From Mycobacterium dioxanotrophicus (GTDB lineage Bacteria > Actinomycetota > Actinomycetes > Mycobacteriales > Mycobacteriaceae): DNA of 64,000 bases. Location of the stretch: NCBI RefSeq assembly GCF_002157835.1, contig NZ_CP020809.1:3410001-3474000 (forward strand), given 5' to 3'. Position numbers and translations under genes: made by a program. A model generated the notes under the pieces. It did no database searches, had not been told where the DNA came from, and saw nothing but the letters and a program-made list of their open reading frames with translations. Positions 20,923-28,607 of the stretch are shown one piece after another (position 1 is the first letter of the stretch; each line of letters opens with the position of its first letter).

Positions 20923-23900
20923 CTACCCCGCGTCGTGCAACAGGCCGAGCTGGCGCAGATCGGCGATGTACTTGGCGATCAGCTCCTCGGACAGGTGGGG
21001 GACATCGCGGCCGGCCCCGATGCCGGCGGATTGCACTGCCGCGCGGAACTTTTCGGCCGGCATCGCAACCCCGCCGGTCGGTGGCGCCGGGTGCGCGTAC
21101 GCGCTCATCAAGGGCAGCACCGAGTTCTTGCGCTGGTCCTCGGGCAGCGCCTTCATGGCCTCCTCGAATCGCTCGCGCCACTCGTCGTAGTCGTCGATGC
21201 GTTCGATGGGAAGTCCCTGCGCGATGAGCCAGTCGACGAATTCGTCGAGGGAGATCCCGTCGTCGTGGGTGTTGAGCACGTTGTAGGTGTGGTAGCCGGT
21301 GGTGCTCGCGGCCCCAAGTGCGGTGATGGCCGCCGAGGTGAAATCCGCGGGCAGCCCGTCGTAATGGGCCCGCTGCCGGTTGCCCGCAGCGTCGAGGGTG
21401 TAGAACGACTTGGGCGCCAGGCCGGTCGCGACGATGCTGAAGATCAGCCGGGTGAACATGTCGGTGACATTGACCTGACCCGAATATGTGCTGTGCGCCA
21501 GGATCATGTCCGAGCGGAACACCGTGACGGGTAGCCCGCAGAGATCGTTCGCCTCGCGCAGCAGGACTTCGCCGGCCCACTTGCTCGTCGCGTAACCACC
21601 GGCGTACGCCGCGCCCAGGGACCGGGCCGGGCTGGCTGCCCGCACATCGACATCCTCGCCGACATAGGTGCCGTCGGGCAGGGCGGTCACCGCGACTGTG
21701 GAGATGTAGTTCACTCCTTTGAGCCGGTCGGTGATCGCGAGCTTGATGATCTCGGCGGTGCCGACGGCATTCGGCCCGAACAATTGGCTATACGGCAGAA
21801 CGTGATTGACCAGCGCAGCGGAATGCACGATCAGGTCGACCGAGTCCGCCAGCCGCTTCCATGTCGCCGTGTCGACGCCGAGATTGGCCGCACCCACGTC
21901 GCCGACCAGGACCTCGAGATGTTTGTCGGCCAGTTCGCGGAAGCGTTTGGACAACGTCTCGTCGCCGGAGTCGATGGCCGCCTCGATGCGTTGCCGCGCG
22001 GCGATCGGATCCGCGCCCCGCGCCAGGCAGATCAGCCGGCCGCCGGTGGGGGCGAGGCGTTCCAGCCAGTCCAGGCACAGAAATCGGCCGAGATAGCCGT
22101 TCGCACCCGTCATCAGCACCGTGTTCACGGTGGCACTCGGGGCGGGCAGAGTCGGTGCGGCGGCGAGGGTGGCCGCGTCGATGAACTTGTCCAGGGTCAG
22201 ATCTGTCGCCTTGGCCACCTCGGCATCGCGACCGTGCACCGACGCGAAAGTGGGCCGGGTAGAGGCGGATTGGCGTTCACCATCGACATACTCGGCCGTG
22301 GTGGTCAGCGTCGCGGTGGGGCTCACGATGGTCTGCACCGGCACATCGATGCTGAAGATCCCCTCCAGCAGCGTCGCGAACGAGAACGCCGACAGCGAAT
22401 CACCGCCCAGGTCGATGAATTTGGCGTCGGCAGGCAGGTCCAGTCCGCCGGTTTCCAGGCCGAGCGTCGCGGCGGCCGCACCTCGCACGGTCTCGATGGT
22501 GGGTTGATGACGGCTCGCGGCGCGTAGCGCGTCGAGCTGATTGTCCTGCCCGGCGGTGATTTCCGCGTATATCGCGTCCAAGCGGTCCTGGTAGTGGCGC
22601 TTCAGTGCCGGGCGCAGCAGTTTGCCCACCCCGGAGAGCAGACCGTTGTCGCGCGTGAAGGGCTCGGGTTCCAGCAGGAAATCCCGAGGAATCTCATAGG
22701 GATTGAGGTGATTCTCGGCGGCGATGTGCTGCAGTGAGTTGGTGATCAGCGACCGGGCGTCACCCGCTCCCACACCGTCGGCGTTCGGCACGATCACGGC
22801 GAGCAGGAACGGTTGATCGCTGCTGCCGTAGATGTAGATCTGCCGGATGTAAGGGCTGGTCGAGTAGCTCGCCTCCAGGTTGGAGACCGCCACGAACTCG
22901 CCCTGTGACAGCTTGATGACGTTGTTGCGGCGGTCCAGGTACACAAGGTGATCCGGGCCGATCTCGGCCATCACGTCCCCGGTCTTGTAGAAGCCGTCGG
23001 CATCGAAGATATCGGCGGACAGTTCGGGGTGCTTGTAATAGCCGGGAATCAGGGTGGTGGTCTTGAGGTACAGCTCGCCGCGCGGGTGCGGCTTGTCGGT
23101 GGTGGCGTAGCCGAGTTCGGGTACGTCGACGAGTTTGTATTCGGTGACCGGTGGGCGCTGCACCACGCCGTTGCGCATGATGCCGCCGCCGTTCTCGGTG
23201 GACCCGTAGCCATCGCTGACGGCGGTGTCCAGTAGCGATTCGACGAACGCGTGCATGTCTTTCGACAGCGGTGCGCTGCCGCACATCGCCGAGATCACCC
23301 GGCCGCCGAGAAAGTCCTCGCGCAGTTCGGCCTTGACGGTCTCCTCCAGATCCGCCGCGGTGGGTTCGGCCGCGGTGCGCTGGTCGAGTTCCTTGCGGTA
23401 GCGGCGGAAGAACATGTCACACACCCGCGGCACCAGGTTCAGCGCGGTGGGCCGTACCAGCGTGATGTCGTCGAACAGGGTCGACATGTCGCTCTTGGCC
23501 GCGAAATAGCCGATGCCGCCCGAGGTCAACGTCGAGATCAGCCAGGCCATCCCGTACACATGGCTCAGGGGCATGTACTGCAGGTGGATCGCGGGGATCT
23601 CGATACCGATGTCCAGCGATGGGCTGCGCGGCCGCTGCCACAGCCGCGTCATCAGATCGGTGGTGTACATGGCCCCTTTCGGGGCGCCGGTGCTGCCCGA
23701 CGTGTAGACGAGCGTGGCCAGCGGGTTCTCACCGGGCGCAGGCAAGAACGGTGCGGCCTCGGCCATCGACCGCCCCGCGTCCATGTCGGCCACCAGCGGC
23801 ACCACCTCGACCGCGCGGCCTGCGGCGGCCAGGCGGGCGGTCGCCGCCTCGACATGCTCACGCTGGTCGTCGTCGGCCTCGGAGTAGTCGAAGACCACCA

Positions 23901-24456
23901 AACGCTGCACCGACGGGGCCTCGATGATCAACTCGACGGCGGTGTCGAGGGACTCCACGCTCGCGGCGAAGATCCGCGGTGTGGTCTCGGCGATGATCGG
24001 TGCGAGCTGCCGTGCTGATGAACTCGTCTGCAGGGGAACGAAAACGGCCCCGAGGCGGGCACAGGCCAGCTGGATCACGGTGTAGCCGATGCTTGTGAAA
24101 CCGAGCACCGCGATGAAGTCGCCGGGCTTGAACCCACTGGCGTGCCAGGTGTTGGTCAGTGCCACGACGTTGTCCCGCAGGCGCCCGTAGGTGATGGTGT
24201 CGAAGCCGGCCAGCAGGCTGGTGGTGGTGCGCCCGGTGGCCGGGTCGCGGACCACCTCACGGGATCGCAGGCCGAGTGCGGGGCGGTCGGCGTAGCCGGT
24301 CAGGCACGCGTCGATCGCCTGCCACAGTCGCAGCTCCGGATCCTGGATGCGGAGGCTGACATCGGGATCCGGGGCGGCGGCCCGGAACTGGGGGTCTGTC
24401 GCGTGCAACTGTTGGATGCGCTGGACGAGTCGTTGCTGTCGGGCGTCGTCGGTCAT
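20923..24456 (-). CDS. car: Carboxylic acid reductase (CAR; FadD9-like)
   Basis: A 1177-aa three-domain enzyme that reduces carboxylic acids to aldehydes with ATP and NADPH. The adenylation domain (about 1-640) has VYTSGSTGAPKGAMYT and DGYGSTENGG; the carrier domain carries the phosphopantetheine Ser near residue 686 in DLGGDSLSAFSF; the reductase domain has MTGANGYLGRFL near 782 and the YATSKWAGEVL catalytic Tyr/Lys near 955. The length matches FadD9/CAR of mycobacteria. Activity needs a phosphopantetheinyl transferase, not seen here. It lies 165 bp downstream of the M6/ATP-grasp operon on the same strand. Confidence 0.96.
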   Translation of the reverse strand: MTDDARQQRLVQRIQQLHATDPQFRAAAPDPDVSLRIQDPELRLWQAIDACLTGYADRPALGLRSREVVRDPATGRTTTSLLAGFDTITYGRLRDNVVALTNTWHASGFKPGDFIAVLGFTSIGYTVIQLACARLGAVFVPLQTSSSARQLAPIIAETTPRIFAASVESLDTAVELIIEAPSVQRLVVFDYSEADDDQREHVEAATARLAAAGRAVEVVPLVADMDAGRSMAEAAPFLPAPGENPLATLVYTSGSTGAPKGAMYTTDLMTRLWQRPRSPSLDIGIEIPAIHLQYMPLSHVYGMAWLISTLTSGGIGYFAAKSDMSTLFDDITLVRPTALNLVPRVCDMFFRRYRKELDQRTAAEPTAADLEETVKAELREDFLGGRVISAMCGSAPLSKDMHAFVESLLDTAVSDGYGSTENGGGIMRNGVVQRPPVTEYKLVDVPELGYATTDKPHPRGELYLKTTTLIPGYYKHPELSADIFDADGFYKTGDVMAEIGPDHLVYLDRRNNVIKLSQGEFVAVSNLEASYSTSPYIRQIYIYGSSDQPFLLAVIVPNADGVGAGDARSLITNSLQHIAAENHLNPYEIPRDFLLEPEPFTRDNGLLSGVGKLLRPALKRHYQDRLDAIYAEITAGQDNQLDALRAASRHQPTIETVRGAAAATLGLETGGLDLPADAKFIDLGGDSLSAFSFATLLEGIFSIDVPVQTIVSPTATLTTTAEYVDGERQSASTRPTFASVHGRDAEVAKATDLTLDKFIDAATLAAAPTLPAPSATVNTVLMTGANGYLGRFLCLDWLERLAPTGGRLICLARGADPIAARQRIEAAIDSGDETLSKRFRELADKHLEVLVGDVGAANLGVDTATWKRLADSVDLIVHSAALVNHVLPYSQLFGPNAVGTAEIIKLAITDRLKGVNYISTVAVTALPDGTYVGEDVDVRAASPARSLGAAYAGGYATSKWAGEVLLREANDLCGLPVTVFRSDMILAHSTYSGQVNVTDMFTRLIFSIVATGLAPKSFYTLDAAGNRQRAHYDGLPADFTSAAITALGAASTTGYHTYNVLNTHDDGISLDEFVDWLIAQGLPIERIDDYDEWRERFEEAMKALPEDQRKNSVLPLMSAYAHPAPPTGGVAMPAEKFRAAVQSAGIGAGRDVPHLSEELIAKYIADLRQLGLLHDAG

Positions 24457-24621: not shown

Positions 24622-24930
24622 TCACGGGCGGCTGACGGTGCAGCGGTCGGCCTCGGCTTCGGCGAATACCTCGCCGGGCCCGCCCATGTACGCGCGACAC
24701 TTGATGCGCCAACCACCGATGTCGTCGTCGGGCAGCAGGGACCGCTTGACGTTGAGGTCGAGTACCGATCCGACCCGGGCCGACAACAGATCGGCGTAGC
24801 CCTCGACGGGCCACGCATCGTCCACCGCCACTGCCAGCACGTCGTAGGAATTCAGGGACGGATGCGGCGCGCGGGAGCGGATCCCGCCCTCGATGTCGGT
24901 TCGGTTCTCGACGACCTGGACCATGATCAC
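24622..24930 (-). CDS. Small protein of unknown function, last gene of the M6/ATP-grasp operon
   Basis: A 102-aa protein that I do not recognise. It begins with VQVVENRTDIEGG, has a central YDVLAVAVDDAWPVEGYADLL and a likely beta-rich end (VGSVLDLNVKRSLLPD, GGWRIKCRAYMGGPGEVFAE). No signal peptide or membrane segment is present. The GTG at 24930 overlaps the ATP-grasp stop by 4 nt (GTGA); ATG at 24924 is an alternative. The strict coupling says it works with the ligase: a substrate-binding accessory subunit or a modified peptide are both possible. Confidence 0.7.
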   Translation of the reverse strand: MIMVQVVENRTDIEGGIRSRAPHPSLNSYDVLAVAVDDAWPVEGYADLLSARVGSVLDLNVKRSLLPDDDIGGWRIKCRAYMGGPGEVFAEAEADRCTVSRP

Positions 24931-25832
24931 GCGGCCTTCCCGGCGAGGAACTCGACCAGCGCGGTGCTGATGGGTTGACCTGCCTCGGCTTCAAAATAGC
25001 TGTATCCGGGCATGGGATTGACCTCGAAGCACACATACTCTCCGTCGGGGCGCCGGCGCAGGTCGATCCCGGCGAACGGCAGGTCCAGTCGTGCGCTGAG
25101 CGCGACGCACCGGGCCGCGACGTCCGGCGGTAGGTCGACGGGCCTGAGCACCGCATCGGCACCGTCGCGGTGCGCGTAGCGGTAGTCGACCACCGGGCTG
25201 CTGATCTCGGTGGCGAAGACCCGCTGCCCGACGACATGGACCCGCACGTCGACGCCCTCGACCAGTTCCTGGAACTGGGTCGGCAGATCGCGCACCCGGT
25301 CCAACCCGGCGGCACGCTGCTCGTCGAGTGGCCGCACGATCGACCGGATGCCGCTGATCGACTTGAACACCACACTGCCGTGCCGAGCCCAGAACTCGCG
25401 GACGTGGTCGGGGTCGGTGCTCACCAAGGTGTCGGGCACCGCGAATCCACAGGCGGCAATCTCCTGGGCCTGGAATGGTTTTGACGCGTTCGAATGCATG
25501 GCCGCCGGTCGGCTGACGACCAGGCAGTCGGCGACGTCGAGCCATTCGATGAACACGTCGTCAAAGACGCGGGCCCGTTCGTGGTCGCGCTGATCGCCGC
25601 GCATCGGTGTGGTCAGCGGCCTGGCGTAGACGGCCTCGATCTCATCGATGCGAATACTGCTGCCGCTCACCACCAGTCGCCCCCGCACGTCGCCGTCGCG
25701 GACCTCGAGGCACATGTCGCTGTGCGCGGCGTGCCGCTGGTCGATCACCAGATAGTCGAGCCCGAGATCGGCGGCCGCGTCGATGGCACGCTCCAATGGC
25801 CGGTCGTCGGGATACCCGTAGAAGACGATCAT
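24927..25832 (-). CDS. ATP-grasp ligase (RimK/graspetide-ligase-like)
   Basis: A 301-aa ATP-grasp enzyme with an apparently complete active site. The pre-ATP-grasp domain covers about 1-115. The ATP-binding Lys157 is in VVFKSISGIRS, FQELVEGVDVRVHVVG gives the Glu and Arg of the nucleotide pocket, and the magnesium residues Glu270 and Asn272 are in VCFEVNPMPGY. The family joins a carboxylate to an amine or hydroxyl through an acyl-phosphate; relatives include RimK and the graspetide macrocyclases. ATG at 25832 overlaps the upstream gene's stop by 4 nt. With a Lys/Asp-repeat tail encoded two genes upstream, side-chain ligation is an attractive but unproven role. Confidence 0.88.
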   Translation of the reverse strand: MIVFYGYPDDRPLERAIDAAADLGLDYLVIDQRHAAHSDMCLEVRDGDVRGRLVVSGSSIRIDEIEAVYARPLTTPMRGDQRDHERARVFDDVFIEWLDVADCLVVSRPAAMHSNASKPFQAQEIAACGFAVPDTLVSTDPDHVREFWARHGSVVFKSISGIRSIVRPLDEQRAAGLDRVRDLPTQFQELVEGVDVRVHVVGQRVFATEISSPVVDYRYAHRDGADAVLRPVDLPPDVAARCVALSARLDLPFAGIDLRRRPDGEYVCFEVNPMPGYSYFEAEAGQPISTALVEFLAGKAA

Positions 25833-26617
25833 GCTGGTACTCCGGCAGTCGTGAGGGCCACGCGCGCCACCAGGGCAGCGACCGCGTTCACCGCCCTCGG
25901 ATGGGTGACGGTCCGGAACGGCACCGGCTGTACCGCGACGACGTGCGCGCCGGCGAGCTCGACCTCCAGCACGCGACACCGTGCGGCGGCGGCCAACGCG
26001 AGGTACGGCACGGGATCGAGGCCGCGCCGGTCGGCTGCGACGACATCCCCAGCGATGACGGCGATTTCGTTGGTGGAGCCCACCTGGGTGCCGGTGGCCA
26101 GGTAGGGGCGGCGGGCATCGTAGGGCGATCCCCGCCAGCCCTCGACAATGCGGGCCGAGCTGGACCGGGCGGAGTCCGCGACCGGCAGCCCGGCCCGGCC
26201 CGCCTCGACGAGCCATCGCTGCGGGCTCCAGGACGGCCCGCTCAGACCCATGCCGTCGACACCGTTGATCACGCGCGATCCGAGGCTATGTAGCCAACTG
26301 ACCATGAGCGCCCGGAACTCACCCGCCGCGTAATTACGGTCAGCGGTACTCGATTTCGCGAACCGGGGGACCGGCGCCGCCTCACTGCGCACCAGGACCG
26401 CGGCAAGCTCGGTGCTGTCGATCCGTCGCCCTCCGGGCAGGACGATCGTCGTCGTGGTGGCTCCGCCCCGGTCGACCGTATGTGTCCATGCGGCACCGGA
26501 CAGGCTCGCGGGCGTCACGACGGTCACCCACAGATCGGCGTGGAGTGCGGCGATGGCCGACGCCACCGCCGCAGCACCTGCGTCGCCGGGGTCGGCGACG
26601 ATCACTATGTCGGCCAC
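25829..26617 (-). CDS. ATP-grasp-like protein lacking catalytic residues
   Basis: A 262-aa protein whose layout follows that of the downstream ATP-grasp ligase: a Rossmann-like start (VADIVIVADPGD), a loop with RSEAAPVPRFAKSSTADRNY, a helix FRALMVSWLHSLGSRVING and PQRWLVEAGRAGLPV match the ligase's pre-ATP-grasp segment by position and pattern. At the end the ligase's EVNPMP is replaced by AVQPVP, and no ATP-binding lysine segment is evident. It therefore looks like a pseudo-ATP-grasp partner. GTG at 26617 lies 2 nt after the M6 stop; GTG at 26653, overlapping M6 by 35 nt, is the alternative. Neither has a clear ribosome site. Confidence 0.75.
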   Translation of the reverse strand: MADIVIVADPGDAGAAAVASAIAALHADLWVTVVTPASLSGAAWTHTVDRGGATTTTIVLPGGRRIDSTELAAVLVRSEAAPVPRFAKSSTADRNYAAGEFRALMVSWLHSLGSRVINGVDGMGLSGPSWSPQRWLVEAGRAGLPVADSARSSSARIVEGWRGSPYDARRPYLATGTQVGSTNEIAVIAGDVVAADRRGLDPVPYLALAAAARCRVLEVELAGAHVVAVQPVPFRTVTHPRAVNAVAALVARVALTTAGVPA

Positions 26618-26618
26618 G

Positions 26619-28607
26619 TCAGCACGGCGCGGTGTCGAACTCTCGCTTGGCACTCGGGTCTGCCGAGGCCATGCGACCGGTCAGGTTGCCCTGGTCGGCG
26701 GCGGGTCCACCGATCAGGTCGGGACGCAGATCGCTGCCGATGAACGGCTGGGCCGCTCCGGCGGCGACAGTGGCCTCCAGGGCCGCCACGCGCGCTTCCA
26801 GTTCGCCGATCCGGTCGTATCCCGCACCGGAATCGGCGTCGTAGTAATCGGCACCGGCTCCGAAGCCGCCACCGCCGAGGTCACCGCCACCGGGCCGATC
26901 GAACGGCTTGTCGCCGGCACCCTCTTTGAGGTCCTTGCCTTCCTTCGCGGCGTCCTTGCTGTCCTTGAGGCTCTCCTTGATGTCCTTGCGGAGGTCTTTG
27001 ACGTCCTTGGGGCCGTCCTTGAGATCTTTGCGGCCGTCTTTGAGGTCTTTGGCCAGCTCCTTGGTGTCCTTGCGGAGGTCCTTGACGTCCTTGGGCCCGT
27101 CTTTCAGATCCTTCGGACCGTCTTTCAGATCCTTCACCAGGGTCTTGCCGCAGTGAACGCTGATCGTCGCTGTCATCGTCGGCCCGGAAGGCGAGATGCT
27201 GGTGATCGAAACACAGGTGTCCTGGCCGGCGTACGACTTCGTGTTCGGCGTGGAGCCAGCCGTCAGCGACGTGTTGTTGCTACTGCCCGGGTAGGGGTCG
27301 CCGGCGTCGCCGCGATTGTGGTTCAACTCCAGGTCACGGTTGCCGTCGGCTTGCAGCAGGGCGACCTTGTAGTGGTTCTCGTCGGTGTTGCCGGGCTGGT
27401 TCTCGTCGATGTGCCAGGCGAGCAGACCGTCGCCGGGCAGGTCGGCGTCGAAGCCGGTGCGTTGGCGGTTTTCGACGAGGAAGTACTCCGGTCCCGCGGT
27501 GCCGTCCTTCCACAGCCGCAGGAGATTGTGGCTCGTCTTGACGTCGGGGATGCTCACCGAGCCATTGGCGGTGATGCTGGTTACCGAGGCCCATCCCTGG
27601 TTCGCTTTGCACCACGCAGACGGGTGAGCCGGTACATCACCGCCGCCGTTCCAACTGCCACCGGCCATCAGGCACCAGTTACCGATGCCTTCCGAGGTGT
27701 AGTCGGTGTCATAGAGGTCGGGGAATCCGAACAGCAGGTGGCCCAGCTCGTGGGCGCACACCCCGATCTTGGCGTCCTCCGGAATGGTCAGGTAGCCATA
27801 GATTTTGGTGTTGTCAGTGCTGTAGGCGGTGGACAGCGTCGACTTGTGTGACCAGATGTCACCCGCGTTGCCGGTGACCTCCGCGCCCTGTCCCGCATGC
27901 ACGACGATGAAAGCGTCGACAAAGCCGTTGCCGTCGTTGTCGTACGGCCCGAAGTTCACGTCGGGATCGGCTGCCACCGCCGCGTCGTGCGCGAGCTGCG
28001 GCGAGCGAAAGGCACCGCCGCCCTTGCCGATTCCGTAGTTGTTGTTGGCGTACCACGCGAGCGTCTGCGGCATCTGGTACGGACCGACGACGTCACCCGA
28101 CAGTGACACCAGGCCGTTGGTGACCTCGTTGTAGTACTCCTTGACGCTGCCGTGCGGCAGCACGCCGGTGGAGAAGAACAGATCGCGGAAGTGGTTTGCG
28201 TCGTTGCCCATCGCTTTGTCGGAGAACTGGACGAGCACGACGATCACCCGGACGGTGCCGCGCAGCGGAGCCCGGTCGGCAGCCGCGCGGCTGATGACGC
28301 TGACCGGCGTGCCGAGCGGGAACTCCTCCGGAGGGATGATCACGCCGTCGTCGAAACCGAGGCGGCGTGGTTTTCGTTCCAGGCCCAGGGCATTGGTCTC
28401 GGCACGCGTCCCGCGTTTCTTGACGCGTTGAAGCTCGGCGGCCCAGCGGTCGCGAAGTTCTGGGCTCGGACCGACGGCACAGAAGTCGCTGTAGCGGGCG
28501 ATGACGGAGTGCTCGTTGTGGTTGGGTCGGACGTCGCCGGTGGCGATCGCGTCGACAGCGCGGTGATGGGTGGCCTCGGAGGGCTCCCGAAACGGTTTGG
28601 TAGTCAT
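26619..28607 (-). CDS. M6-family metalloprotease with Lys-Asp repeat tail
   Basis: A 662-aa protein with an M6 (immune-inhibitor-A-like) peptidase domain. The zinc site near residue 285 is CAHELGHLLFGFPDLYD, with the Met-turn CLMAGGSWNG behind it. Residues about 492-565 are a low-complexity tail of KDLKDGPKD- and KDVKDLRKD-type units, followed by a Gly-rich stretch, a short coiled coil (IGELEARVAALEATV) and a C-terminal cysteine. Secreted M6 enzymes carry signal peptides; none is visible here. ATG at 28607 was chosen. TACTGT 8 nt upstream fits a leaderless -10 element, and no Shine-Dalgarno is seen. First gene of a four-gene coupled operon. Confidence 0.87.
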   Translation of the reverse strand: MTTKPFREPSEATHHRAVDAIATGDVRPNHNEHSVIARYSDFCAVGPSPELRDRWAAELQRVKKRGTRAETNALGLERKPRRLGFDDGVIIPPEEFPLGTPVSVISRAAADRAPLRGTVRVIVVLVQFSDKAMGNDANHFRDLFFSTGVLPHGSVKEYYNEVTNGLVSLSGDVVGPYQMPQTLAWYANNNYGIGKGGGAFRSPQLAHDAAVAADPDVNFGPYDNDGNGFVDAFIVVHAGQGAEVTGNAGDIWSHKSTLSTAYSTDNTKIYGYLTIPEDAKIGVCAHELGHLLFGFPDLYDTDYTSEGIGNWCLMAGGSWNGGGDVPAHPSAWCKANQGWASVTSITANGSVSIPDVKTSHNLLRLWKDGTAGPEYFLVENRQRTGFDADLPGDGLLAWHIDENQPGNTDENHYKVALLQADGNRDLELNHNRGDAGDPYPGSSNNTSLTAGSTPNTKSYAGQDTCVSITSISPSGPTMTATISVHCGKTLVKDLKDGPKDLKDGPKDVKDLRKDTKELAKDLKDGRKDLKDGPKDVKDLRKDIKESLKDSKDAAKEGKDLKEGAGDKPFDRPGGGDLGGGGFGAGADYYDADSGAGYDRIGELEARVAALEATVAAGAAQPFIGSDLRPDLIGGPAADQGNLTGRMASADPSAKREFDTAPC
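26913..27134 (-). repeat. Lys-Asp repeat region inside the M6 protein gene
   Basis: About 74 codons encode imperfect repeats of KDLKDGPKD, KDVKDLRKD and KDLKDGRKD units, with only occasional Glu, Thr, Ser or Ile interruptions. On the plus strand this appears as recurring CTTGAGGTC, CTTGACGTCCTTG and GGGCCGTC words. Alternating Lys and Asp could form a salt-bridged single helix or be the substrate of the neighbouring ATP-grasp ligase. Confidence 0.9.

Follow-up and report, generated by a model that had tools for sequence, protein, structure and literature searches.

What does a graspetide-type ATP-grasp ligase act on when its locus holds a peptidase and no separate precursor? This question is raised by an operon of Mycobacterium dioxanotrophicus (genome size 8.08 Mb), located in a stretch of 64,000 nucleotides of contig NZ_CP020809.1 (positions 3,410,001 to 3,474,000), hereafter the window. 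Four coupled genes, all on the minus strand at 24622–28607, encode an M6 metallopeptidase, two ATP-grasp-like proteins (G2 and G3) and a small protein (G4). The peptidase bears a tail rich in Lys and Asp/Glu (K/D-E), and we consider it fairly likely that this tail is the substrate, or precursor, of the ligase G3; we are less confident of the exact bonds within it. A first-pass annotation made from the DNA letters had suggested that the ligase may cross-link the tail. The comparison of related loci supports this suggestion, as G3 is of the graspetide type by sequence and the K/D-E tail is conserved on five peptidase families.

The gene ends meet or overlap as first described, with a 1-nt gap between the M6 and G2 genes (TGA-c-GTG), an ATGA overlap between G2 and G3, and a GTGA overlap between G3 and G4. 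The relatives of G4 fit its ATG start at 24924 better than the GTG at 24930. The assignment of the first product to the M6 peptidases is borne out by its HExxH site, reading HELGH, and by a TIGR03296 score above the cut-off (Table 1). A signal-peptide-like N-terminal hydrophobic stretch is absent from it, again as first noted, the highest 15-residue mean hydropathy being 0.54. Across 32 tailed peptidases, which we call carriers, this maximum does not exceed 1.30.

Sequence comparison identifies G3 as a graspetide-type ATP-grasp ligase of the MvdD/MdnC/PsnB kind. The closest solved structure is PsnB (7drm, E = 4.9e-42), and MdnC (5ig9) matches at 1.9e-27. The active-site residues K157, E270 and N272, previously picked out as intact, are invariant in 26 homologues. 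The DxR segment, D216-Y217-R218, is likewise invariant in 26 rows; it aligns to DFR of PsnB and reads DYR, not DFR. The NCBIfam model TIGR04187 (GRASP_SAV_5884) gives G3 133.5 bits, below its curated cut-off of 350, and four relatives 117.7–144.2 bits. G2 had been taken for a degenerate relative of G3, and hhalign agrees (97.7%, E = 2.2e-12, 238 columns): it aligns to both ends of G3, but the segments with K157 and DYR are missing from it, as are E270/N272. In Streptomyces purpureus (L026, 5146–6004) G2 lies in two frames, owing to a frameshift or a sequencing error. G4 was found only in M6-type loci and in L039, where the carrier gene lies off the contig.

Related loci were gathered by G3 alone and never by the tail, so the sample was not chosen for tails. 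Strong relatives were those with tblastn E ≤ 3e-71 in the genome collection, which yields 29 loci, and with profile E ≤ 4e-72 in the other sources, which included 296 genomes of the window's phylum, 292 genomes of the phylum of the Synechococcus locus, and two viral-contig scans. The resulting 38 loci are the window, L018, L019–L047, L075, L076, L134, L135, L158, L160 and L165. The nearest named relatives by G3 identity are Mycobacterium aquaticum RW6 (95%, L020) and Mycobacterium sp. 852013 (92%, L019). The operon system is rare. Among 61 related genomes, a strong G3 match occurs only in genomes G000 and G056. No G3 relative beyond the centre genome was found in 247 genomes of the Algibacter phylum (E 1e-30), nor in 299 genomes of the Rhodoferax phylum and 148 of the archaeal phylum (E 1e-40), and 169 genomes of the phylum of the Acidobacteria locus gave, besides the centre genome, one strong and two weaker relatives.

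Gene order among these homologues, a check proposed at first pass, proved to be conserved: a tailed peptidase lies directly before G2 and G3 in 32 of the 38 loci. The operon is interrupted in two further loci, by a contig end in L028 and by a run of N in L034; the tailed M6 peptidase then lies on another contig or about 560 kb away in the assembly. L039 begins at a contig end and hence cannot be assessed for a carrier. The independent cases number fewer than 32, because several rows are near copies (the window, L019 and L020; L040 and L043; L031 and L034; three archaeal loci). In Phycicoccus elongatus Lp2 (L034/L111, genome G366) the first part of the operon lies about 560 kb from the part at the run of N, a separation that is probably a scaffolding error. 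On the tree, the ligases of L031, from a metagenome-assembled genome named Burkholderiaceae, and of Phycicoccus elongatus are near-identical, with branches of 0.0067 and 0.0094, and the Burkholderiaceae label is doubtful.

The peptidase part is interchangeable among the tail-bearing loci, a feature that the first-pass annotation overlooked. The 32 contiguous loci carry 25 M6, four S1/NAL1 and one each of C13, S8 and M43 peptidases. The S1 carriers (NAL1/trypsin kind; L040, L043, L045 and L076) all contain GDSGS; Pfam, applied to three of the four, gives weak scores, and only L076 passes a cut-off (Trypsin, 22.2 against 20.6). The C13 carrier of L134 scores 26.9 (cut-off 22.8), the S8 carrier of L158 145.6 (21.8) and the M43 carrier of L165 52.5 (23). 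Since M6 and M43 peptidases alike have an HExxH zinc site, the five families represent at least four folds. On the G3 tree the carriers are placed with five changes, the minimum for six carrier kinds. A branch with modest support (81/79) separates the M6 rows from the rest, and the S1 rows are not grouped alone. Upstream of the S1 carrier in L040, L043 and L045 there is a conserved small gene (79–104 amino acids), which by eye resembles the carrier's N-terminal part.

The alternating Lys/Asp tail reported for the window is present, at 71 residues rather than about 74, and consists of ten heptads K[DE]xK[DE]xx plus one residue. Each of its 21 Lys residues is followed by Asp or Glu, compared with 6.2 ± 1.7 in shuffled sequences, and [DE]K does not occur. 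The tails of two close relatives are 85 residues long, that is, longer by 14 residues (two heptads). Since repeats grow by duplication, shuffle-based significance is overstated; the K/acid pattern persists across divergent relatives. In pooled M6 and S1 tails, near copies included, successive K[DE] units are spaced by three residues in 204 of 424 cases and by four in 185. With near copies and L044 removed (22 M6 and three S1 tails, one tail each of C13, S8 and M43), Asp/Glu at K+4 is enriched over shuffles with z values of 11.6 in M6, 5.0 in C13, 3.5 in M43 and 2.2 in S8. The repeat unit is KKxEPD in the M43 tail and KxxxEP in the C13 tail. Repeated donor and acceptor residues, as expected of a graspetide precursor, are thus found in the tails (sparsely in L044), and the carrier tail is probably multi-core.

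The tail is part of a larger C-terminal module, in which the K/D-E repeat is often followed by a short coiled coil and then by (P)FIxxxxRP at or near the C-terminus. Neither the motif nor the coiled coil had been noticed at first pass. In an alignment of 27 M6 and S1 tails the columns F, I, R, P and L are invariant and L, K and D nearly so; the residue after RP is Asp in 24 tails, Thr in two and Glu in one. The segment PFIxxxL resembles PFFARFL, with a spacing of x3 versus x1–2, and its Pro is absent in the S1 and S8 carriers, L021 and L165. A further motif, KxxhD, follows 29–43 residues after FI in the 31 M6 and S1 carriers; it is present in 31 of the 32 carriers tested and absent in C13, with L158 and L165 lying outside this test. 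The S8 carrier of L158 ends at SFITPDSRPDLD (RPDLD), and the M43 carrier of L165 has no Asp between RPD and the C-terminus. Because KxxhD is missing in C13, S8 and M43, the element common to the five families is the K/D-E-rich repeat before FIxxxxRP. The S8 carrier tail stops at the motif, and therefore the repeat is the only plausible cis substrate there.

In the genomes tested, strong tail matches are also restricted to these operons. The tail profile gives one strong match per genome in 31 of the 33 collected genomes. The two that it misses are G282, where there is no carrier, and G371, where the match is at noise level (0.037); four other genomes have a second, weak match (E 0.004–0.03). 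Among 396 genomes of the window's phylum, with at most 15 candidates scored per genome, strong matches occur only in the two operon-bearing genomes, along with two weak ones (0.002–0.004). On other carriers the profile is weak, with E values of 0.0011 for the C13 genome and 0.0002 for the M43 locus. Of the 57 M6 domains that TIGR03296 detects (28 of 32 genomes have at least one), 27 adjoin a profile-detected tail and 30 do not; one of the 30 is in G377, where the tailed carrier is of the S1 family. No other small precursor open reading frame common to at least three groups was found among 1137 small open reading frames near 32 loci.

Cross-linking of the tail by the ligase is the best reading of these data, because the K/D-E tail is conserved beside the ligase on five peptidase families. 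We propose that G3, probably as a pair with its dead paralogue G2, would dock on the (P)FIxxxxRP motif (RPD in most tails), which would serve as a recognition follower on the C-terminal side. At the expense of ATP, G3 would then activate the Asp/Glu side chains of the repeat for linkage to Lys side chains. The likeliest linkage would be from K(i) to D/E(i+4) or (i+5), with 18 Da lost per bond, and the window tail could accommodate about ten such bonds. This would yield a peptidase ending in a chain of lactam rings that is stiff, less charged and resistant to the enzyme's own activity, and the role of the ring chain would be to anchor, assemble or release the tail. The docking, the formation and connectivity of the bonds, the function of the product and the parts played by G2 and G4 are inferred. 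That the system as a whole is a graspetide-type modification, fused to its carrier and recognized from the C-terminal side, appears to us rather probable.

Several observations weigh against this proposal. ATP-grasp neighbours without a KD-type tail, named at first pass as a finding that would speak against it, occur in three of the 37 assessable loci. Two of them, L075 and L135, have the ligase and a G2 remnant (E = 1.1e-13 over a 124-residue frame and 7e-13 over a 71-residue frame, respectively) and no carrier; their genomes contain no tail match, with a profile that can miss divergent tails. In the third, L160, the carrier position is occupied by a DUF6519 protein ending, by eye, in AFIRADERPMIAPPG (AFIRADERP) without a K/D repeat. 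The repeat of L044 is sparse and falls below the density criterion, the C13, S8 and M43 families are each represented by one locus, and the S8 tail was recognized by eye, because the profile gives only E 0.23. K+4 is not the sole enriched spacing: +5 is also raised in M6 (z 8.5), M43 (2.8) and S8 (2.2), +1 and +8 are enriched in M6 tails, and S1 tails favour +5 (7.1) over +4 (0.8). A known graspetide leader precedes its core, while the motif here follows the repeat, C-terminal to it; for the leader motif, Phhx(1,2)h is the published form, compared with Phhx(3)h in these tails. Finally, the isopeptide bonds are themselves a prediction, and a plain linker or a charged helix could also give rise to the alternating charges. 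L160 (2307–5270) lies on a contig filed as viral, and the tail system may extend beyond peptidases.

A rival reading is an arrangement in the canonical order, in which FIxxxxRP would be a leader of the N-terminal type, the C-terminal KxxhD the core with one lactam, and the K/D repeat a spacer. The occurrence of KxxhD after the motif in 31 of 31 M6 and S1 carriers examined fits this arrangement, as do its K and D, which are among the next most conserved columns, and the GG present after the motif in 14 of 27 tails, a feature shared with many known precursors. However, L134 (C13), L158 (S8) and L165 (M43) lack KxxhD and all keep the K/D-E repeat, and we regard the canonical order as unlikely. 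It is also conceivable that G3 adds amino acids to the side chains or C-terminus of the tail in the manner of RimK, to which it has weak similarity. The match to PsnB (E 4.9e-42, versus 7.7e-13 for the best ribosomal-S6 ligase) makes this highly improbable.

The tail could alternatively be an unmodified charged linker or helix, with the peptidase cutting peptides out of other proteins and the ATP-grasp pair acting on these, as hypothesized by Makarova et al. (2022). Linkers of charged, low-complexity sequence are widespread, there is no known product, and the ligase occurs without a tailed carrier in two loci. Nevertheless, the same tail and motif stand on five peptidase families beside this ligase, strong tail matches are found nowhere else in the genomes tested, and the Gly and Pro content of the repeats (8–19%) argues against a plain charged single helix; we consider the linker quite unlikely. 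A similarly small probability attaches to the view that the coiled coil holds subunits together and that G3 bonds the tail of one to that of another, so that covalently joined peptidase oligomers form instead of rings inside a single tail. A coiled-coil-like segment does adjoin the motif, and ThfB can link two chains joined by an engineered coiled coil (PMC12291112, cited from a partial text), but the segment is weak or missing in several alignment rows.

Such loci are not wholly new, and the first-pass view that no system with this gene set had been described is only partly right. Makarova et al. (PMC8939145; this and the following papers are cited from portions of their text) described loci of ATP-grasp branches 7 and 8 that contain unrelated peptidases and in which no precursors were found; those of branch 8 also have a truncated, inactive ATP-grasp. 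The present loci would belong to branch 8, with which they share unrelated peptidase families and the lack of a separate precursor in the locus. In that work the peptidases were suggested to cut other proteins, whereas here the peptidase's own tail is the proposed precursor. Carter et al. 2026 (PMC13097080) proved a Lys(i)-Asp(i+4) isopeptide at KxxxD in corallotide, made by CorB. The CorA/CorB system resembles ours in its repeated KxxxD in a large precursor and an ATP-grasp annotated TIGR04187, but has a stand-alone precursor, an oxygenase and a beta-lactamase homologue, with no peptidase fusion described in the portions cited. Graspetide group 32 of the same paper also has neighbouring proteases of diverse families, which are read there as maturation or resistance genes.

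MdnC, PsnB and ThfB share sequence kinship and catalytic residues with G3, and the P-h-h leader motif of microviridin may have a counterpart in the tail motif. In microviridin, plesiocin and fuscimiditide, unlike here, leaders occur naturally at the N-terminus, and no peptidase is fused to the precursor. A leader moved to the C-terminus retains activity, that is, works as a follower (Johnson 2026, PMC13003496), and ThfB, which cyclises and cross-links whole proteins (Choi 2025, PMC12291112), accepts both a C-terminal leader and protein substrates. Searches of the open-licence PubMed Central literature, at the level of titles and parts of abstracts and without supplements, yielded no account of a peptidase tail serving as graspetide precursor, and the engineered swap of PMC13003496 was the only case of a C-terminal graspetide follower encountered in them.

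Two other loci contain related genes in different settings. In the cyanobacterial L137 (G749:C65, 3016–5975), a small, apparently secreted protein contains QPFIQDTF together with clusters of K and D. One ATP-grasp of this locus carries a fused domain that is weakly WelO5-like (21.5 bits, below the cut-off of 27), and by eye a second gene is also ATP-grasp-like. L167 (G1524:C159, 4342–11002) has three graspetide-type ATP-grasps followed by a gene that by eye resembles a peptidase–ABC (ATP-binding cassette) transporter. In the window itself, a 1177-residue gene lies just downstream of the operon on the same strand (20923–24456); we take its product to resemble a carboxylic acid reductase, with adenylation, carrier and reductase parts.

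Table 1. Features of the operon in the window (window coordinates; residue numbers refer to the M6 carrier).
Feature	Position	Strand	Remarks
M6 metallopeptidase with C-terminal module (carrier gene)	26619..28607	-	662 amino acids + stop
M6 domain	27411..28241	-	residues 123-399; TIGR03296 251.1 bits, cut-off 110.8
Zinc site HELGH	27738..27752	-	residues 286-290; identical in all listed M6 carriers
Lys-Asp/Glu tail	26922..27134	-	residues 492-562; proposed multi-core substrate
Short coiled-coil-like segment ELEARVAALEATVAA	26760..26804	-	residues 602-616; by eye
PFIGSDLRPDL	26715..26747	-	residues 621-631; proposed ligase recognition motif (follower)
KREFD (KxxhD motif)	26634..26648	-	residues 654-658; downstream of recognition motif, possible extra lactam site
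G2, predicted catalytically dead ATP-grasp-like partner	25829..26617	-	GTG start
G3, intact graspetide-type ATP-grasp ligase	24927..25832	-	by sequence comparison
G4, small OB-fold protein	24622..24930	-	start GTG 24930 or ATG 24924

If correct, our proposal would offer a direct answer to the stated question of graspetide-type ligases that lie beside unrelated peptidases without a precursor (PMC8939145), and it predicts a natural C-terminal follower and cross-linked tails on whole enzymes. The handle and repeat together would constitute a portable tag that could be used to staple chosen proteins. Whether the system amounts to a general protein-stapling system, in which a ligase pair reads a modular FIxxxxRP handle and forms rings in a K/D-E repeat on enzymes of several folds, is to our mind evenly balanced. 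In that case, the post-translational modification would act on whole peptidases in bacteria and archaea, and its product would not be a small natural product.

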